Below are positions 2,648 to 37,161 of a stretch of DNA of 37,684 bases, one piece after another (positions within the stretch are counted from its first letter, which is position 1; each line of letters begins with the position of its first letter). The notes beneath the pieces are model-generated. The model saw only the letters and a program-made list of their open reading frames with translations, ran no database searches and was not told where the DNA came from. The position numbers and the translations under genes were made by a program. Source of the DNA: a virus; the IMG/VR virus record IMGVR_UViG_3300042876_001166, positions 1-37,684 of that record; one strand, given 5' to 3'.

Positions 2648-3546
2648 TAAGTCAGTCCTTCAATATCCAATGTACAGATTGATTCTGTTGGATAAGCAAT
2701 GGTGATGGAAAAGTCTTTATAAAAACCGTAAATCACGGTTGAGCTGTATTCGTCGGTGCCGGCATAGACAATCGGCGTGGCCCGGTAACTGGCCAGCAGC
2801 GCATGCAGCTGGTCAACATAGCCGGAATCAACCCATAATGTGAAATTGGCATGCTTGTTAAATGTCCGCTCCAGAATCGTATAATTTCCAAACGTATCAC
2901 GGGTTTTAACGCTGTAATCCTGAATACCAACCTTGACGCCAAACTGTGTGCCGCCAATGATCTTCTTAAAGCCCATCACCAACGCACCCATCAAAACCGT
3001 ATAACCCGGATCGCTTAAAATAATCTGGATAGTCGGCGCGGAATACGGCGGCAAATCGTAGGCAACAAAATCGGTCTTGCGGACAATCGGCTCATAAAAA
3101 TAAGCATACCAATCAGTAATGCCGCTATCGGAAACCAACGACGTAGTTTTGTCATACACCACGCCGTCGATCGCATCGGTCATTTTGATACGCACCGAGG
3201 CGGCGGCAATGTTCAACAGCGCCACGGAATCAATCCGGCCTATCGTCGCAAAGGTCACATCAATACTGTCGGCATTCGATGCCTGAGAAGTGATGGATTG
3301 ATCAAACAACTTCCAGCGGTTGGTCGCGCCCACTTCCAGCCACCAAGTCGGCGACGTGGCCGGCGTATGACCGATATTGCCAGCCTGCAATGACTCGTAC
3401 ACCTTATGCACATCGGCGGCGACCACTCGCACCCGCGCACCCAGCGCATAAGTAGTGCCAACCGCCCAAGCTGTGTAATCGGTTTCGGGGATATTGCAGG
3501 CCGTTAACGCCGCATCATTAACAATAAAAGGGCGGATCAGCATCAT
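2647..3546 (-). CDS. Putative distal tail/central fibre-like protein
   Basis: Protein of 299 aa, following the tape measure gene with an overlapping start. Residues about 24-70 (AWAVGTTYALGARV, then AGNIGHTPATSPTWW) look like the small aromatic carbohydrate-binding module found in phage tip proteins. The rest is beta-rich. In long-tailed phages with Mu-type replication this position holds tip proteins between tape measure and fibre. No sheath, baseplate wedge or spike genes are present here, so this protein and the fibre must form most of the tip. Exact family not recognised. Confidence 0.55.
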   Translation of the reverse strand: MMLIRPFIVNDAALTACNIPETDYTAWAVGTTYALGARVRVVAADVHKVYESLQAGNIGHTPATSPTWWLEVGATNRWKLFDQSITSQASNADSIDVTFATIGRIDSVALLNIAAASVRIKMTDAIDGVVYDKTTSLVSDSGITDWYAYFYEPIVRKTDFVAYDLPPYSAPTIQIILSDPGYTVLMGALVMGFKKIIGGTQFGVKVGIQDYSVKTRDTFGNYTILERTFNKHANFTLWVDSGYVDQLHALLASYRATPIVYAGTDEYSSTVIYGFYKDFSITIAYPTESICTLDIEGLT

Positions 3547-6500
3547 GCGACTACCCTCGTTGCCGGCAGGCCATCGCCTTCCCAGCGTTTAATGATCTTG
3601 GCCACGTCGGCAGTATTTTGGGCAATCGCCACGCTTTGTGCTTGCTGCTCGATGCGCAATTGCCGTAATTGCTCGGCAACCGCATCGTTGCTTTGCGCCA
3701 CCGTAGTCATGGCCGTCGCCACCGGACTGGGAGCCATGCCGGGAAACAACTGAGCAGGGTTGCCGGTCGGCATAAAAGTATTGTTAGGGTTGGCTGGCAA
3801 CAAATCAGTCGCCTTGCTGATGCCTGCCAGGCTGGCCAGGCTCAAATAGCGTTTGTAGTCCACAGCCGTGGCAAACGTGTCTTCAGTCAACAACTTCATG
3901 CTGTCGCGCAATTTTTCGTTTGCGGCATAATAAGTATCGGCGGCTTCCGCCAATGACAATAACTGGTTATAGCGCTCGCGACCGGCGACAGTATCCAGCC
4001 GCTGAGCATTGACCAAATCGCGGTAGGCTTGCCGGCTATCCGGCAGTATTAAATTCATGTCCAATAACGACTGAGTCAGCCGGCGCGTGGTATTGGCCAA
4101 CTGCTCGGACTCGCTATAAAACTTGCTGTAATAATCCTGGAATTGCGCCTGAAACTCCTTAATGCCGCCGGCCAGCGTCACCAAGCCATCGGCCATTGCC
4201 ACCGCATCGCCCTTAAAGCTGCTGCCAACCAAATCAATCGCATCCAGCACCACGGCTTTTTCGGCGACCAGGCGCGTGGCGGTTTCAAACAAGCCTTCGC
4301 CGAGTTTTTGATATTTGGCGATCAAGCTGCCGAAAATCGCCGTCGTCATGGTATCCAGCTGGGTGGATAGCACATTGTTCAGCGTTTTGATCATGTCTTC
4401 GGAAGACATGCCGTATAAGCTGATTTTCAGGCTTGGAATCACGTAGTTATTCACCGCATTGGTCATGTCCGCACCAAACTCGGTAGCCATTGCGATCATT
4501 GAAGTGCCCATGCCCCTGAACATCTTTGACAAGGAATCCTGAAACTCAGGGTCAAGCGAACTCAGCATTTCGGAAACCGTGGTTTTCTTGGAAAACCAAC
4601 TTTTTTTCGTGGTGGTGATTTCAGTATATTGCCTGCCGGAAATTTGGCCGCCAGCAAGCAACTCGGCAAGCGAGGTTCCGCCAGCGTAAATGCCGCCGCC
4701 TGTGATTTCACGTTTAGTGGTGCCAAATATGCCCTTTAACAAAAATTTTGACACCGGATCATTGGTCGTAAAACTTAAGATCATGCGCAAATGAGGGTCT
4801 AGCATGGCTTTAGTGGAAGGTATGTTTGAGAACGTTCCCAATGGGCCGACATTAGGCGTTTGCAAACCACCAGCCTGAAACAGTCGAGTAATCGAGTCGG
4901 TAATACCAGTTTTCAACGCCGCCACGCCGGAATTGATGCCGCGCAACTCGCGGTATTCCTTGGCGTGAATGTCTTTCAAAAGCTCATAGGTATTGTTGAT
5001 CGATTCCGATTTTGCCGTAGGATCGCCCAGCACCGTGCCACTATCTGGCGACGTTGGAATGGCGGCGGTGCCAACGGCGCTACTGTTCGATGATGAAAAC
5101 CCCAAACCCGCCATTACTGCCAACATGGCGGCCACACCGGCAAAACCCAGCCAGCCGGATTGTGAGAAGAATTTAGCGGCACCTGCGGCAATACTGACCA
5201 CGGTTTCTTTAAGCTGCATCGCAATACGAATGGCGGAAAGCCCCATTTCGATGGCATGAAAAGCCTTAGCGGCCGCCGATTTTTTCTCAAATAAGTTGGC
5301 GGTTGCCCCGGCGATCTGGCTCATACCGGCGATGGCGGAAACCGTTTTTTCTTTCTCCAGTTGCTTTTCTTTCGCCAACCCTTTTGCAATCAACGAAGCA
5401 TTGGCAATGGGATTTTTCTGGGCTTCCTTCAAACGCTCTGAATTATCCGCCTGTGCCGCTGCAAATTTATTCATTTGCTCAGACAAATCGGTAAAAGCAC
5501 CGGTCAACAAATGAATGCCACCCAGCGCCCCGTCAAATACATCGGCACTAGTAGCGCCCATCTTGCTCAAACTATCGTCGACCTTATTCAACCATTGGTC
5601 ATACTCTTCGGCCGACTTAGCCGCCTGATCCAACTCGGAGTTAATCGCCTTATCCGCCGCGTCGTAATTCGACTGACTCATGCCGCCAGAATAGAAATGC
5701 GAAACCGCCGGAACCGTCGGATTGGCCTTTTGCTGAGATTTATCCCGCGCATCATCGGCCTTGGCCAGCAGCATGATGTATTGCTCCAGGCTGATATTGC
5801 GGGTGTTGTAGGCGCGGCTATATTCATCGACGGTATCGATAAACACTTGATCAGATGTGCGGGCCTGGTCGCGCAAGGCTTGATAGCGCTCCTCGATTTT
5901 TAACGCTTCTTGCTTGGCTTTATTCAAGGCCTGTTGGGCGGCGTGTTCGGCTTTAGTTGCGGCTGTTTTTTCATCCGCTTTCGCTTTCTTTTCCGCCTCT
6001 TTCCGTTTATCCGAATCAATACCGGCCAAATCGTCCAGCCATTGCTGGGTTTGAGCAATGGCTGTCTGACTGGCGGCGCGCTGTTGCTGCGATTTAGCCA
6101 GGTCATCTTCAGCCGCTTTTTGCTTGCGTAAGGCATCAAGCCGGTTTTTTTCCAGATTGATGTCGTAACCGGAATAATCCGATATCGCCTTGCCGATAGC
6201 GCCAGATTGGTTATAGGTTTTAATCCGCGCTTCCAGGTGGCTGATTTGATCATCAACAGCACTACTCATATTGCGCCGCAGGATATTCAGGCTATTAGTC
6301 ATAGAACTGACAATGCCTTTAACTAGCCCCTCGCTTTTATCCTGCATCAGCGTATCTTCAAATTGATGCCAGGCGTCCGATAAATTGGAAATCTTACCGT
6401 TCAAGGTTTCCATCGCAATGGCATTGCTGCCGTTGGCCAGTTCCCCCATTTTTTTAATAATGGCGTCGATCGCATCGCGGCCTATCTCGCCTTTTGCCGA

Positions 6501-7187
6501 CATTTCCATAATCTCGGCGCCGGTTTTATTCATCGCTTCGGCTGCCAGCTTATAGATCGGTATACCGCGCTCAGCCAAAATCACCATGTCTTCCTGCTGC
6601 AACTTGCCTTTGCTGTAGGCTTGACCTAATTGCAATGCGATGGCAGTAAGCGTTTCCTGGCTGCCGCCTAATTTGCTCGCCTGATCGGTCAATGCCTGCA
6701 TGACTTCGCGCGTTGGGTTTAGCCCCATGCCTTGCAGCGTGACAAAGGTCTTGGTTAAACCATCGATCTCGTATGGCGTGCGCGTGGCGAAGTCCTGGAT
6801 GAATTTGAACTGCGCGGCGCCGGCTTGGGCGGAACCCGTAATTGATACCAATTGCGCCCGCAACATCTCCATGCTGCGGTTGGTATTAAGAATATCGCGG
6901 GCCAGGGTAGCAGCCACGCCGACCGATAAAATGCTGCCAGCCATACCGGCTATGCTGCCGCGCACGACAGAGGCAAGATCGGCGGTTTGCGATCTAACCG
7001 ACGCAACGCCTTTGCCCAACTCCTGAGTCGATCGATTGGCGGCATTCATGCCGGCGGCCATATCGGCCCCAGCTTTTTGGGCATCCTTGCCCAGATCGAC
7101 CACGGAACGGTCCACCTGATTAACAGACGCAACGGCCACTTTGCCGTCGGCTGTAATTCTCAGTTTCAGTTCCATGTCGTTATTCAT
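3543..7187 (-). CDS. Tail tape measure protein
   Basis: Protein of 1214 aa, the longest gene in the window. The tape-measure domain lies at about residues 70-270, including NRSMEMLRAQLVSITGS, ATRTPYEIDGLTKTFVTLQG, GMGLNPTR and LAERGIPIYKLAAEAM. A Lys/Gln/Ala-rich coiled coil follows at about 330-470. A hydrophobic stretch (WLGFAGVAAMLAVMAGLG, about residue 680) follows and probably enters the host membrane during DNA delivery. The C-terminus is helical. Its place directly after the chaperone pair and the overlapping ATGA start are typical. The length predicts a long tail, by the usual rule that tape length sets tail length. Confidence 0.93.
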   Translation of the reverse strand: MNNDMELKLRITADGKVAVASVNQVDRSVVDLGKDAQKAGADMAAGMNAANRSTQELGKGVASVRSQTADLASVVRGSIAGMAGSILSVGVAATLARDILNTNRSMEMLRAQLVSITGSAQAGAAQFKFIQDFATRTPYEIDGLTKTFVTLQGMGLNPTREVMQALTDQASKLGGSQETLTAIALQLGQAYSKGKLQQEDMVILAERGIPIYKLAAEAMNKTGAEIMEMSAKGEIGRDAIDAIIKKMGELANGSNAIAMETLNGKISNLSDAWHQFEDTLMQDKSEGLVKGIVSSMTNSLNILRRNMSSAVDDQISHLEARIKTYNQSGAIGKAISDYSGYDINLEKNRLDALRKQKAAEDDLAKSQQQRAASQTAIAQTQQWLDDLAGIDSDKRKEAEKKAKADEKTAATKAEHAAQQALNKAKQEALKIEERYQALRDQARTSDQVFIDTVDEYSRAYNTRNISLEQYIMLLAKADDARDKSQQKANPTVPAVSHFYSGGMSQSNYDAADKAINSELDQAAKSAEEYDQWLNKVDDSLSKMGATSADVFDGALGGIHLLTGAFTDLSEQMNKFAAAQADNSERLKEAQKNPIANASLIAKGLAKEKQLEKEKTVSAIAGMSQIAGATANLFEKKSAAAKAFHAIEMGLSAIRIAMQLKETVVSIAAGAAKFFSQSGWLGFAGVAAMLAVMAGLGFSSSNSSAVGTAAIPTSPDSGTVLGDPTAKSESINNTYELLKDIHAKEYRELRGINSGVAALKTGITDSITRLFQAGGLQTPNVGPLGTFSNIPSTKAMLDPHLRMILSFTTNDPVSKFLLKGIFGTTKREITGGGIYAGGTSLAELLAGGQISGRQYTEITTTKKSWFSKKTTVSEMLSSLDPEFQDSLSKMFRGMGTSMIAMATEFGADMTNAVNNYVIPSLKISLYGMSSEDMIKTLNNVLSTQLDTMTTAIFGSLIAKYQKLGEGLFETATRLVAEKAVVLDAIDLVGSSFKGDAVAMADGLVTLAGGIKEFQAQFQDYYSKFYSESEQLANTTRRLTQSLLDMNLILPDSRQAYRDLVNAQRLDTVAGRERYNQLLSLAEAADTYYAANEKLRDSMKLLTEDTFATAVDYKRYLSLASLAGISKATDLLPANPNNTFMPTGNPAQLFPGMAPSPVATAMTTVAQSNDAVAEQLRQLRIEQQAQSVAIAQNTADVAKIIKRWEGDGLPATRVVA

Positions 7188-7528
7188 TTTTTCTGCCTAG
7201 CCTCTCTAAATACCGTTAATGCCGCGTCTTCCATCACCTGCAAATCCTCGAACAGTGCCGCACGTCCTTTCATCCGCTTGATCCGGAACACCGACTCCAC
7301 CGCCGCATAATCCAGCCCAAACACTTCGCCCATGCCGCCGATCCGCCACTGGCTGGACAGCGAGATAAACATCATCACGGCATCCCAGTTTTCCGGATAA
7401 ACCTTAAAATGCAGGTCGGCCGCTTTAAATCCGGCCGGTAACTCAATGCCCAACGCTGCGCAATCGGCGGCAAATTCGGCGTTTTTAGACTTGCCGCCAT
7501 TCGCCCACCACTGCGCGGCCTCGATTAG
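7184..7528 (-). CDS. Tail assembly chaperone extension (GT/DUF1799-like), made by -1 frameshift
   Basis: This frame lacks a convincing start: the only early candidate is a TTG at 7453 without a Shine-Dalgarno sequence, and the frame is open well upstream into the preceding gene. Its protein (LIEAAQWWANGG at the junction, GLDYAAVESVFR in the core) resembles the DUF1799 family encoded between the chaperone and the tape measure in long-tailed phages. A slippery A-AAA-AAC at the end of the upstream gene, just before its TAA stop, would move ribosomes into this frame at CTA (7528-7526). That adds 114 residues to the 114-residue upstream product (228 aa in all), as in lambda G/GT. The stop overlaps the tape measure start. 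Confidence 0.8.
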   Translation of the reverse strand, partial: LIEAAQWWANGGKSKNAEFAADCAALGIELPAGFKAADLHFKVYPENWDAVMMFISLSSQWRIGGMGEVFGLDYAAVESVFRIKRMKGRAALFEDLQVMEDAALTVFREARQKK

Positions 7529-7869
7529 TTTTTTCTTTTTGCACCAACGATGCTTTCAAACCAGGCCGCAATCACGCTGGGGCGCACCGGGTAAATTTCC
7601 AGCAGTTTGTCACGCATGACAGGGGAAAACTCCACCGGTTGGCCTTGGTCGTCGGTCACGTCGTCCCAACCCACGAACACCTTAACCACCAAGTCGTTAT
7701 CAGTAATTTCCTTGGCTTGCGATTTCTCAATCAACTCATCGATCTCGGATTGCGCCAGGCGCAAAAAATGCGCCTTAAAGGTTTTCGGTGAGGTCTTGCC
7801 GTTGCCGTCCAGAAAGTCGACTTTGACAGGGTAAACAATATGGTCGGATTGGCCTGCTAGTTGAAACAT
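7525..7869 (-). CDS. Tail assembly chaperone (G-like)
   Basis: Protein of 114 aa starting MFQLAGQSDHIVYPVKV. The ATG at 7869 has an AAGG Shine-Dalgarno sequence 8-11 bases upstream. A longer in-frame extension to 7956 would translate a non-coding repeat and is rejected. The fold pattern (beta strands, FKAHFLRLAQSEIDELIEK helix, VGWDDV, then SPVMRDKLLEIYPVRPSVIAAWFESI) is that of tail assembly chaperones acting with the tape measure protein before tube assembly. The 3' end carries the frameshift site. It lies between the tail tube and tape measure genes, the expected place. Confidence 0.85.
   Translation of the reverse strand: MFQLAGQSDHIVYPVKVDFLDGNGKTSPKTFKAHFLRLAQSEIDELIEKSQAKEITDNDLVVKVFVGWDDVTDDQGQPVEFSPVMRDKLLEIYPVRPSVIAAWFESIVGAKRKN
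7528..7534 (-). promoter_or_regulatory. Programmed -1 ribosomal frameshift site A-AAA-AAC
   Basis: On the minus strand the end of the upstream chaperone gene reads AGA AAA AAC TAA. The heptamer A-AAA-AAC is in the X-XXY-YYZ phase and is followed at once by the zero-frame stop. After slipping back one base the frame continues CTA ATC GAG GCC into the next gene. G/GT-type frameshifting is conserved in tail chaperone genes of many long-tailed phages. The use of this site is inferred. Confidence 0.8.
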
Positions 7870-7982: not shown

Positions 7983-9146
7983 CTATTTAGCGACGATGAT
8001 CAATTCATCATTGCCGTTGATCGGCATAAACTGCATGCCGAATTCCAGCATCGCAATACCATCGGAATCGGCGTATTTCGGCGCGGTAATCTGCATGGAT
8101 GGCGAGACGACAGAAATGATATTGCCGGCGGTTAAACCGTGTTTGATGCCGAAAACACCGGTCGCGGCATTTTTGGCACTGGTCCACCAGTCTTGCGTCG
8201 CCACCGTCACCGCCTCGATAGTGGCGCTGCCGACCGGCTTGCGGTTGGTGATCAATACCGACTCGGCTCCCACCAGCTGCCGATAAACCACGCTGTTAGC
8301 AACATCGAACGTCAGTTTTTCCAGGATCGCGGCGGTATAGCCTTGCAAGTTAAGATCGGTGGTGTTCGCAGTCGATACGGTTTGCGGCGCCTGGAAGCCG
8401 GAAAAAGACACCGACGGCAAAGCACTGTCGGAAATAGTCCCCAGCAAACCGGTAAAGCTGAATTTCAGCACCGGCAAGGCTTTTGCCGACAGATCGATCG
8501 ACACCGTGCCGCGCGCGCCGAGTAGGATATGCCGCACGCCGTCCAGGTTGAAATACAACGACAGCGAGGTGCTGGCACCGAAGGCGCTAGTCGGCGCATA
8601 TTGAGCCATTGCCCCGATGCTGTATTGACTGGTCGCATCCGGCGCACCCGCCCAGGCTTTGGAAACCGTGGCGATCTTGGTAGTGCCGTTATATGAAATA
8701 ATCTCCCGCGCCGTACCGTTATTGGTGCCGGCCGTGATGCCGATCGTCGCGCCGTTATAAGCGCCGTCCACAGCCGAAGCGCCGGCCGCCAGTTTGATCG
8801 ATGTCGTCGAGCCGCCGACTTGCGCGGTGCCGACCACGGCCGCCGCCAGCAAGGTTTCAGTAAAGGCGCAGGCCGTCATCAGCTTGCCCCAGGGTGGCGC
8901 GGTGCCAGCCGTACCGGAACCGACCAGCTCGACCTCGAAATCCAACTTGGCAAAATTGCTAACCCGAATCTCGCCGGACGATCCAAAATATGGCCGGATA
9001 AAATCCCGCTGCACCACGTCGCCTTCCAGCGGCGACAGCGTTAAATTCCTCAGCAATAACGCATCGGCGCCGGTAGGGGAAGCGTCCACGCCATAAGTGC
9101 CTTCCAGCTTGGCGATGATGACGCGCTTATTATTTAATAGCGACAT
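7983..9146 (-). CDS. Major tail tube protein (siphovirus type)
   Basis: Protein of 387 aa, beta-rich, beginning MSLLNNKRVIIAKLEGTYGV. The core has RPYFGSSGEI and FEVELVGSG. An inserted bead-like domain at about residues 110-180 (AAGASAVDGAYNGATIGI, then YNGTTKIATVSKAW) is of a kind often found in phage tube and decoration proteins. A strong SD (AGGAG) precedes the ATG. Position before the chaperone pair and tape measure supports the tube role. No sheath gene is adjacent, which argues against a Mu-type contractile tail. Confidence 0.82.
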   Translation of the reverse strand: MSLLNNKRVIIAKLEGTYGVDASPTGADALLLRNLTLSPLEGDVVQRDFIRPYFGSSGEIRVSNFAKLDFEVELVGSGTAGTAPPWGKLMTACAFTETLLAAAVVGTAQVGGSTTSIKLAAGASAVDGAYNGATIGITAGTNNGTAREIISYNGTTKIATVSKAWAGAPDATSQYSIGAMAQYAPTSAFGASTSLSLYFNLDGVRHILLGARGTVSIDLSAKALPVLKFSFTGLLGTISDSALPSVSFSGFQAPQTVSTANTTDLNLQGYTAAILEKLTFDVANSVVYRQLVGAESVLITNRKPVGSATIEAVTVATQDWWTSAKNAATGVFGIKHGLTAGNIISVVSPSMQITAPKYADSDGIAMLEFGMQFMPINGNDELIIVAK

Positions 9147-23909: not shown

Positions 23910-24212
23910 ATGAAAAAAACAATCGCATTATTTTGGGCGGTGATCTTTGCCGCCTTCTTCCTGTTTCCCGTCGCCGCCCAGTCGGCGGCGGGCGATGAGG
24001 TCCGCATCGATCGGCAAACGGTCACCATCCAAAAGCAGGCGATCCCTGCAATCTTGGCTGTATCCGCCGCCGATCTCAAACGCCTCAATCGTTTCAGCAC
24101 CCGACCGGGTTTTGTGGTGCCGCTGACCGTAGCCAATACCAAAGCCTTCACACCAAGGCAGATGGCAAGCATCGTAAGCGACGGTTACAAAGACGATCCG
24201 CACATCGTTTAA
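23910..24212 (+). CDS. Moron: secreted or periplasmic small protein
   Basis: Protein of 100 aa on the plus strand, opposite to its neighbours. A strong SD (AAGGAG) precedes the ATG. The first 28 residues are a Sec signal peptide: KK, then IALFWAVIFAAFFLFPVA and a likely cleavage after AQSA. The mature part has a basic alpha/beta mix: DRQTVTIQKQAIPAILAVSA, FVVPLTVANTKAFTPRQM. A strong terminator follows within 10 bases. An independently placed single gene with its own terminator is the classic moron layout; such genes may be expressed in the lysogen. No family recognised. Confidence 0.75.
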   Translation: MKKTIALFWAVIFAAFFLFPVAAQSAAGDEVRIDRQTVTIQKQAIPAILAVSAADLKRLNRFSTRPGFVVPLTVANTKAFTPRQMASIVSDGYKDDPHIV

Positions 24213-33125: not shown

Positions 33126-35417
33126 TTACTCTTCCCCTACGGCCTTGCGGCTGTCGTCCATCAAACGTCTCATCGTTTCCACATAGCTCAGTCGCTCTTC
33201 CTCCGGTTGTTGTTGGCTAAAATCGGCTTGCACGATCTTTAGCGGTTCCAAGGTCTCGGCCGGCATGTATTCCACCCGCTGTAAAACTTCGCCGTCGATG
33301 ACTGTTCCGTCTTCCATATCTACTAAATCGATCTTTTCCTGAAGGCTTTTTTTCTGTCTGACTTTCCGTTTTTCCTTCAGGTCGTCCATCATTGACACAG
33401 GGAAACCGGCTACTTTGTTGCCGTCCCAAACCGCTTCGCAGATGAATACCCCTTGTAAATCGCTGATCCATACGACGCTTGGGTCGCGCAAATCAAACGC
33501 CATCCGCACCTTGGTTTTGGCGGGCAGCTCAAGCAGTTTTTTGTTGAAATAGATATTGTTCAGGAAGCGCACTTCGCCGCGGCTTGGCATCCGCTCTTTA
33601 AACGGCCGGTACAGTGTGGCTTTTTCTTCATCGCTCAAATGACAAGCCCAACTATCATCAAACTTTGAGTGATACACCTCGGCAGGCGTCTTACCGCCCA
33701 ACGCACTGTGCTTATGCTGGGTGTTGTACCAATGGATTCGCTCTTCGCACAGCCGTTTAAACTCATTCCACGGCGTTACAAACTCCGGTATCTCGCCCTT
33801 GGTTTTTGCGCTATTGATGGCAACGGTATTCTTGCGCATTGCCTCGCCATCCATGCCCGTACCCTGAAAGGTCGGTAATTTTTTAGCGACTGCAATCATG
33901 GTAATGTCCCAAATCCCCTCGATAATGCCGCGCCCTTGCGGGTTACCGGGGATACCTGTTTCATGTCGAACCCCAAGCCTTGCTAGCATCCCACCGGCTG
34001 GGCAATCGATGGTTTTTGCCGTCTGGCCGGAACCGTTATCGCTGTAATAAACCAGCGGCTTCCCGTATTTGGTCATGCCGTTGCCCAGTGATTCGGAAAC
34101 GGCTATCTGGTTCTCTGAAAGGCTAAAGGCCCAGCCCACAATAAACCGGCTCGCCGCATCAATGATCAGCGTCACTTCCGGCGCGAAAGCAACCCGCTCT
34201 TTATCCGGGTGACGCACTTTGGCCTTAAAACTATGACCATCGCCCACCCACACTTCATTGCTGCTCATGTTTGACCAATCGCGGCGAACAAACGCCTGAT
34301 AGGCTTTGTATTCGGAACCGGTCGAGCGGCCCCACTCCAGCACCAAGGCCGGAATTTTCTTTCTCAGTCGAAACACCGCGTCATAACTCGGCACTTTCTC
34401 GGTAAAGCCGTGCGCCTCCCAATCGTTGGCAAACTCACGATGCGCCTCTTTAAGCGTCGGCTTTTGTGGTTTTCGATAACAAGCCAGAAACACAGGCAGC
34501 CACCACACCGTTTTCCAATCGGTTTCCGTGCGGGTTTTTTTGGGGATGCAGCTGTTGGTATCATTGCGCAAGCGTTGCCATTTCTCGACGGTGCTTTTCG
34601 ATAGCTTACCCAGCCTTTTTTCATTGACCTTAGCGTTGCAAAGCAGCACGGCGTCCCGCATATCAAGGGTTAACGTATTCTCCTGAAACCCAGCATTGAT
34701 AAAGTCCACCGCCTTTTCAACGGAGCCCGGAAACTGCTCGACAAAGTTCAGGATGTACTGGCGCGCACCGTCGGTGAGGCGTTGTTTTTCGGTGGTTTTT
34801 ACTGTCAATACTGTGATTTCGTTCTTTCCAGAGCCTCCTGAATGTCCTGATGTATCAGGTGCATCCAAAAGCTGATCGCCAATAGCCCCTTTTCCGTCAG
34901 TGTCCAATAAAGGTCCGGCGCCAGATTGATCAGCCCCATTTCTTCCAGTCGCAGTTCCTCCACCAACGATTTCGCCTCGCCTCTGGAAAACCCCTCCATT
35001 TCGTCCGACTCCGGGTGACTGGATACACTCCGCTGTTCCTCGTTGGCTAATATCCAGGTCAGCGCTCGAAATTGATACAAGCTCAGTTCCTGAAGCATTG
35101 CCCAACATTCCACTGTCATCCCCTCTGTTAATAGGGGCTTGTGTGCCGTTAATGGTGTTTTGCCTGTTTGATTCGCATGGTTCATTGAGATATTTCCTTT
35201 TTATACGTTGTAAATTTACTGCATCCTGATGCTCGGTAGGCAGCTTGGAGATCAGGAACCATTTTTTCTCGGTGCCTCTGATTTTTTCCGGCTTATAGAC
35301 CCAATTGCCGTTATCTTTGTCCGCCATGCGGCGTACAGTTTGTGGGCTTTTGCCTATCGCTGCCGCAATTTCCTCGGCATCGGCATACCTGTTTTTATCG
35401 ATCTCGCTCATTGCCAT
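33126..35417 (-). CDS. MuA-like DDE transposase
   Basis: 763 aa. Residues 1-75 are a MuA N-terminal winged-helix domain (YADAEEIAAAIGKSPQTVRR, KWFLISKLPTEHQ) for the internal operator/enhancer. Residues 78-204 are an unusual Gly/Ser/Asn-rich linker coding in a second frame for another protein. From about 210 follow the end-binding helices. The catalytic core holds D393 (VWVGDGHSF), D460 (VYYSDNGSGQ) and E500 (GNPQGRGIIE). Then come HWYNTQHKHSALGGKTPAEV and a beta-barrel (MuA C-terminal type) to about 660, and a charged tail for MuB contact. Start 35417 or 35411 (AAGG SD fits the latter). Larger than MuA (663 aa), mainly because of the linker. Confidence 0.93.
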   Translation of the reverse strand: MAMSEIDKNRYADAEEIAAAIGKSPQTVRRMADKDNGNWVYKPEKIRGTEKKWFLISKLPTEHQDAVNLQRIKRKYLNEPCESNRQNTINGTQAPINRGDDSGMLGNASGTELVSISSADLDISQRGTAECIQSPGVGRNGGVFQRRGEIVGGGTATGRNGADQSGAGPLLDTDGKGAIGDQLLDAPDTSGHSGGSGKNEITVLTVKTTEKQRLTDGARQYILNFVEQFPGSVEKAVDFINAGFQENTLTLDMRDAVLLCNAKVNEKRLGKLSKSTVEKWQRLRNDTNSCIPKKTRTETDWKTVWWLPVFLACYRKPQKPTLKEAHREFANDWEAHGFTEKVPSYDAVFRLRKKIPALVLEWGRSTGSEYKAYQAFVRRDWSNMSSNEVWVGDGHSFKAKVRHPDKERVAFAPEVTLIIDAASRFIVGWAFSLSENQIAVSESLGNGMTKYGKPLVYYSDNGSGQTAKTIDCPAGGMLARLGVRHETGIPGNPQGRGIIEGIWDITMIAVAKKLPTFQGTGMDGEAMRKNTVAINSAKTKGEIPEFVTPWNEFKRLCEERIHWYNTQHKHSALGGKTPAEVYHSKFDDSWACHLSDEEKATLYRPFKERMPSRGEVRFLNNIYFNKKLLELPAKTKVRMAFDLRDPSVVWISDLQGVFICEAVWDGNKVAGFPVSMMDDLKEKRKVRQKKSLQEKIDLVDMEDGTVIDGEVLQRVEYMPAETLEPLKIVQADFSQQQPEEERLSYVETMRRLMDDSRKAVGEE
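34805..35185 (-). CDS. Overprinted gene inside the transposase linker (126 aa)
   Basis: Open frame offset by +1 in the transposase gene. The ATG at 35185 is preceded by AAAGGAA with 9-base spacing, a good SD. The product reads like a real folded protein: MTVECWAMLQELSLYQFRAL, TWILANEEQR, GFSRGEAKSLVEELRLEEMG, LYWTLTEKGLLAISFWM, a winged-helix-like pattern with balanced composition and CTG/GAA-rich codons. The transposase frame over the same bases gives low-complexity G/S/N/D protein with many GGA and AGG/CGA-type codons. So the nested frame appears to carry the selected information. A DNA-binding regulator co-expressed with transposase is one possible role. Not recognised as a known family. 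Confidence 0.62.
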   Translation of the reverse strand: MNHANQTGKTPLTAHKPLLTEGMTVECWAMLQELSLYQFRALTWILANEEQRSVSSHPESDEMEGFSRGEAKSLVEELRLEEMGLINLAPDLYWTLTEKGLLAISFWMHLIHQDIQEALERTKSQY

Positions 35418-36459: not shown

Positions 36460-37161
36460 ATGACTATCGGGGCAAGATTGAAGGAATGGAGAGCCTTAAA
36501 AAAACTGGGCCAAAAAGAGGCTAGCTCCATATCTGGAGTGTCTTTTAGCACTTATCAGAATTATGAGATGGATATAAGCCCACCAGGAGCAAAGTCACTG
36601 ACAGGCTTTATTAAGGCGGGCATCAACGCCAATTGGCTAATGACAGGCGAAGGCCCAATGCTGCTGGAAGACGCCAAGCAGTTGCCGCCTGGCCTGCGTA
36701 TCGAGATCGATAAAGTGCTGGCTGAAGGTGGAGACCCAGAGGCCGCCATCCGCCAAGATGCTGCAACGCATAAACTCTGCGCTGAGTATCAAGCCGCGCA
36801 AGCGCTACTTGAATCAATAGTGAGCGAGGTAGGCGTTACCCTGCCTAAAAAGACGTTCGATAGCTTTAAAACACTGCTGTGGCTCAGTGACGGCGAGGAA
36901 AACACGCTTGCAAAGGCGGCAATAATGGAATTGGCCACCTATATCAACAAGCAGACTGCGCCTGTCCCAACATCGCCCATCGATTATGCGCTACTGCAAA
37001 ACTTGATCGAAATGCTGGAGAAAGCCTTGTCTAAACGCCGGCTGGTGCTTGAGCCGGCCCGCAAAGCGGCGGCCATTCAGATAATGTATGAATATTGCAT
37101 GCTGGATGAAACCCAAGCCACGCCGGCCACGGTAGAGCGCTTCCTTAAACTAGTCGCCTAG
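36460..37161 (+). CDS. Prophage repressor, XRE-type HTH
   Basis: 233 aa. The N-terminal HTH (IGARLKEWRALKKLGQKEAS, SISGVSFSTYQNYEMDIS, then FIKAGINANWLMTGEGPM) is of the CI/XRE type with the NWLLTGEGP ending common in phage repressors. No LexA/S24 protease domain is visible: the C-terminal 150 residues are helical (LLESIVSEVGVTLPKKTFD, LLQNLIEMLEKALSKRR). Induction would thus not be by self-cleavage, which fits the presence of an antirepressor. The ATG directly follows an operator half site and has no SD, so translation may be leaderless-like or weak. Confidence 0.88.
   Translation: MTIGARLKEWRALKKLGQKEASSISGVSFSTYQNYEMDISPPGAKSLTGFIKAGINANWLMTGEGPMLLEDAKQLPPGLRIEIDKVLAEGGDPEAAIRQDAATHKLCAEYQAAQALLESIVSEVGVTLPKKTFDSFKTLLWLSDGEENTLAKAAIMELATYINKQTAPVPTSPIDYALLQNLIEMLEKALSKRRLVLEPARKAAAIQIMYEYCMLDETQATPATVERFLKLVA

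Follow-up and report, generated by a model that had tools for sequence, protein, structure and literature searches.

The locus described here raises the question of how a reading frame that begins directly at the stop codon of a tail gene, and lies in another phase, comes to be translated. The window, by which we mean the whole stretch of 37,684 nucleotides of viral DNA that was analysed (IMG/VR record IMGVR_UViG_3300042876_001166), contains a Mu-like gene set with a terminase, a portal and a scaffold, together with a repressor-like gene at 36460-37161 (+) and a DDE transposase at 33126-35417 (-) (phrog_310, E 5e-128); this marks the record as a transposable phage of the Mu type. On its minus strand the zero-frame tail assembly chaperone gene, G (7525..7869, 114 aa), starts at ATG 7869, with AAGG 7 nt upstream, and has the final codons AGA AAA AAC TAA. 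These contain the slippery heptamer A_AAA_AAC (7528..7534), in phase with G and abutted by the zero-frame stop TAA (7525..7527). The second frame, T (7184..7528), is in the -1 frame, opens at the C of AAC with CTA ATC GAG and stays open for 114 codons followed by TGA; it would be read only as a GT fusion. A sequence-only reading of this DNA had claimed the in-phase heptamer with TAA directly after it, the 114-codon -1 frame with a DUF1799-like product and a fusion of 228 aa. The positions of the heptamer and stop (7534-7528 and 7527-7525) agreed with this claim, the -1 frame proved to be open and to encode the expected domain, and the predicted length of the fusion was reproduced when 114 + 114 codons were re-derived from the sequence. 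Upstream of G lies a tail protein gene (7983..9146 (-); phrog_290 minor tail protein, E 3.7e-26), and T is adjoined by the tape measure gene (3543..7187 (-); PF20155 TMP_3, E 1.5e-30). Two overlapping frames thus stand directly upstream of a tape measure gene, which is the G/GT layout. The T stop (TGA 7186-7184) and the tape measure ATG overlap as ATGA (7184-7187, minus strand), and this overlap could couple translation of the fusion to synthesis of the tape measure protein.

Comparison with protein families placed both products among tail chaperones. T matched PF08809 (DUF1799) in Pfam (E 2.3e-16, 60.2 bits with a cut-off of 26) and phrog_680 in PHROGs (E 2e-24). G matched phrog_569 (E 3.7e-13), a family that was found in all 20 aligned G proteins, the window's among them; Phage_TAC_4 (PF08748) was matched by 12 of these 20, and the window's own G had no match in Pfam, Phage_TAC_4 included. 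One further family, phrog_17368, was matched by both proteins, weakly at the front by G (E 0.02) and at the rear by T (E 4e-8), a pattern that a single protein formed by fusion would give. The model of T had a pLDDT of 83 and contained a predicted helix at residues 2-9, right after the slip (block pLDDT 89). When it was compared with BFVD the matches were tape measure chaperones, the best being that of phage Solomon (E 2.9e-4); a search of solved structures (PDB) with G and T gave no credible match for either. The nearest genome match for T was in Methylomonas sp. SURF-1, and the identity of the window's T was 31-45% to most of the aligned relatives and 65-69% to the nearest.

The slip site does not resemble a chance occurrence. 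When both strands of the full window were searched for a stop immediately behind X_XXY_YYZ (Y = A or T), seven places were found, and only at the G/T junction were more than 60 codons open on both sides (142 upstream and 114 in the -1 frame). The next best place, at 23937 (-), is an in-phase CCCAAAA plus stop with 124 open codons upstream and 23 in the -1 frame, and is probably due to chance.

Relatives of T were gathered from viral contigs (36, 80, 80 and 80 loci), from genomes (13 loci) and from 21 phage records hand-picked from lists of 49 and 8 in which one phage was present more than once. The window included, this amounts to 311 places, some contigs having entered twice via different scans; one of the six peptides used in the first contig search overlaps the A run, and the peptides of the later searches do not. 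The alignment of relatives that had been proposed as a check on the heptamer and its phase gave a uniform answer, with a slippery heptamer in phase at 309 of 309 assessable places. At the expected position the heptamer was A_AAA_AAC in 203 cases and G_GGA_AAC in 101 (304/311), and one or the other stood one codon off the automatic anchor at L025 and L275, which brings the AAC type to 306; the remaining three were A_AAA_AAG (L018, L019) and A_AAA_AAA (L222). Two places were not assessable, namely L033, which is truncated, and L177, in which no G was found and homology to the relatives does not extend past the slip point. Clustering at 90% T identity reduced 308 places to 118 clusters, 78 with A_AAA_AAC, 37 with G_GGA_AAC, two with A_AAA_AAG and one with A_AAA_AAA; elsewhere in their G frames, over 11,681 in-phase positions, neither A_AAA_AAC nor G_GGA_AAC occurred. 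In all 21 phage records T is in the -1 frame relative to G with A_AAA_AAC or G_GGA_AAC, and the stop touches the heptamer in 20 of them and lies 3 nt away in PseuP_222. Since the two heptamers encode Lys-Asn and Gly-Asn, respectively, it is the X_XXA_AAC pattern and not the amino acid sequence that appears to have been selected. The frames, the heptamer, the abutting stop, their conservation and the homology that begins at the slip point are direct observations.

It is very unlikely that T is a separate gene translated from a start codon of its own, at TTG 7453 or later. Most of the 21 phage records deposit T as a separate CDS, and the ORF listing of the window offers an 89-aa ORF from TTG 7453, just the false start that a plain annotation had been expected to produce, and such starts are what gene callers set. 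TTG 7453 is the first ATG, GTG or TTG in T and lies 75 nt downstream of its beginning, no SD-like sequence was found ahead of it, and its use would remove the conserved first 25 residues. The homology of T starts at the leucine codon made by the slip, upstream of any start codon, and the conserved residues L1, W8, G11 and G12 as well as the predicted helix precede the first possible start. The claim that T has no credible start therefore held. Relatives with a conserved T start codon preceded by an SD sequence, which would have favoured a separate gene, were looked for; the first start codons found in the relatives were scattered over places well inside T. The T genes deposited for RC1 and RS1 start at CTG, made up of the heptamer's final base plus the stop, that is, at the slip site itself.

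A shift in the mRNA, caused by transcriptional slippage on the run of A residues, is just as improbable. At the site the window reads A5-G-A6, and certain insertion sequences as well as dnaX of Thermus rely on slippage of this kind, as stated in the available part of a review (PMC5009743). In 37 of the 118 clusters, however, the heptamer is G_GGA_AAC, in which no run exceeds three bases, and the arrangement of the frames is unchanged; moreover, the phase of the heptamer relative to the zero frame is fixed, and polymerase slippage needs no such phase. A sequencing error or a decayed gene has a negligible probability, for single-base shifts are common in homopolymers but the slippery junction recurs at every assessable place, in isolates as well as metagenomes, and the relatives refute it. 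When weighed against the relatives, all three of these explanations were rejected.

We consider it about 95% probable that the locus undergoes programmed -1 ribosomal frameshifting as a lambda-type G/GT tail assembly chaperone pair. This reading follows from the membership of both G and T in tail-chaperone families and their site between a tail protein and a tape measure gene; from the in-phase heptamer and the long -1 frame behind it, with a slippery heptamer present at all assessable places and the two main heptamers absent from the other in-phase positions of G; and from the T homology and the confident helix, both of which begin at the slip. Frameshifting of the tail chaperones G and GT is established and well known in long-tailed phages, and Xu, Hendrix and Duda reportedly described it in 2004. 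It is treated in a review (PMC5009743), according to the available text of which G of lambda binds the tape measure protein and T binds the tail tube. For the phage studied here, the occurrence and rate of slippage are inferred, as are the roles of both proteins. Most ribosomes would end G at TAA, and a minority would slip one base back on A_AAA_AAC and thereby produce the 228-aa GT fusion. By analogy with lambda, the tape measure protein would be coated by G and by the G portion of GT, T would recruit the subunits of the tail tube, and the rare slip would set the G:GT ratio.

The window shares with lambda the gene order, the -1 direction, a heptamer lying in phase towards the end of G and a tape measure gene as the next gene. 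The G and T families differ from those of lambda, the window's being Phage_TAC_4-like and DUF1799. These families are found in T1-like and other siphophages (Smarc2, Solomon, HK639, AAS23); in those whose DNA was compared (Solomon's not among them) the heptamer has the same position as in the window and the stop abuts it. In Smarc2 the T family is deposited within a joined frameshift gene, and the paper on Solomon, the top structural match, reports in the part available a frameshift associated with the tape measure chaperone; both phages further support the frameshift reading. The system itself is known, since the frameshift already stands in the annotation of phages that carry this T family, and the window appears to be a real and well-supported further case of it, differing from the Smarc2, Solomon, HK639 and AAS23 group in being a Mu-like phage. 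In the literature searched, DUF1799 is named in one paper, without the word frameshift. Similar shift sites, G_GGA_AAC and A_AAA_AAC, are given for the g-t genes of the haloarchaeal HCTV-1 and HCTV-2 in the text seen of PMC5009743; these, unlike the window, are archaeal viruses. A_AAA_AAC also occurs near the end of the first frame of IS1 insA-insB' (PMC12428005, seen in part), which encodes a transposase and not a tail chaperone. As a counterpoint, the available text of PMC5009743 states that A_AAA_AAC is less slippery than A_AAA_AAG in E. coli.

The stop that touches the heptamer is shared by nearly all relatives. It follows directly at 290 of 306 AAC-type places and in 107 of 115 AAC-type clusters (58/63 at 70% identity). 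In the 107 clusters the stop is TGA in 68, TAA in 27 and TAG in 12, and the eight exceptions have their stop at 3 nt (six clusters), 12 nt (one) or 24 nt (one). The first position of T is Leu (CTN) in all of these clusters. As a control we counted the internal CTN leucine codons of T, of which 104 of 898 create a zero-frame stop; the leucine was thus ruled out as the sole cause, and the stop has been retained beyond what the leucine needs. No abutting stop is present in lambda, where GGGAAAG lies 15 nt ahead of the G stop, or in P2, where the distance is 18 nt; HK97 has no X_XXY_YYZ near the G stop under the strict pattern and hence stands outside this comparison. In the A_AAA_AAG and A_AAA_AAA clusters (L018, L019, L222) the stop is 27-30 nt downstream and does not touch the heptamer, and there may be a trade-off between the strength of the heptamer and the place of the stop, as judged from these three clusters only.

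A conceivable, though doubtful, proposal is that in the TAC_4/DUF1799 family the abutting stop is part of the switch, with slippage and release factor in competition at the A site; termination would then gate the G:GT ratio and thereby tail assembly. If the ribosome slipped while the stop occupied the A site, this would account for the use of all three stops at a retained abutting position, and also for the absence of this stop in the three clusters with A_AAA_AAG or A_AAA_AAA. The proposal draws on a published effect, namely that a stop at such a position lowers -1 slipping and adds sensitivity to release factor in bacteria and mammalian cells (PMC4373837, available part), and on the stop found directly after the site in some dnaX genes (PMC5009743, likewise). 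The plain alternative, that G needs no residues past the slip site, would leave the same pattern in the sequences. The family-wide abutting stop seems to be the less recognised part of the G/GT frameshift; no statement that the stop is kept beside the heptamer in these phages was found in the literature searched, which covered few subscription journals. It is the aspect that deserves a bench test. The relatives form a large natural collection of -1 slip sites that are almost invariably followed by a stop codon, and with them it could be tested in a natural bacterial system whether this codon has already arrived at the decoding site when the slip occurs.

In E. coli dnaX an SD-like stretch upstream and a structure downstream of the slippery heptamer have known roles in frameshifting. 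They are also covered in the available part of the review (PMC5009743). Some A_AAA_AAC relatives may resemble dnaX in combining a slippery A6 heptamer with such elements. In dnaX the heptamer is A_AAA_AAG, the SD ends 10 nt upstream, where some relatives have their SD-like element at about 7 nt, and the early stop is in the -1 frame, whereas in the window the stop is in the zero frame. A possible downstream hairpin in the window (7493..7519 (-); GCCGC arm 7519-7515, GCGGC arm 7497-7493) is weak, with a fold of -10.8 kcal/mol that is no better than in synonymous shuffles (z +0.2), and the same holds for the SD-like element (-2.8 kcal/mol, z +0.36). The window alone gives stimulators no support.

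For the clusters, the 48 nt after the slip were compared with sequence elsewhere in T by means of synonymous-codon shuffles. In the A_AAA_AAC clusters the stretch after the slip was more stable (mean z -1.27 versus -0.25, n = 78, p 4e-9); the clusters are related by descent, and this and the other binomial, Wilcoxon and Fisher values of the stop, hairpin and SD tests are only indicative. The junction of 58 window-like A_AAA_AAC clusters (of the 78, the others being dropped for a differing T start or family) aligns without gaps. A helix of columns 15-22 with 33-40, picked after the sequences had been viewed, starts 7 to 8 nt past the heptamer with 75.4% of cells paired, and a slide by +3 columns is nearly equal (74.1%) because the GGC repeats permit two registers. 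In the picked helix 25 cells were changed on both sides, compared with 10.8 in shuffles, and none of 500 shuffles reached 25. The consensus that RNAalifold derived from the 58 sequences was weak (-1.85 kcal/mol, covariation term +0.02). The gain in stability and the two-sided changes support a downstream hairpin for the A_AAA_AAC group taken together. An SD-like stretch about 7 nt upstream was present in 56% of the 78 clusters with A_AAA_AAC (mean z -0.74, p 2e-4), and this signal was also examined through glycine codon choice. The G_GGA_AAC clusters (mostly L059-L138) showed neither the hairpin signal (z 0.09 versus 0.07, n = 37, p 0.52) nor the SD signal (p 0.42) that was seen in the A_AAA_AAC clusters, and the two heptamers may use different helpers.

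The frameshift reading would also correct annotations, both for the window phage and for many of its relatives, that omit T or give it a false start. The deposited record of S-LBS1 (L041) names the chaperone G (1151-1531) an ABC transporter ATPase component and draws an antisense CDS (1492-1665) across the slip site.
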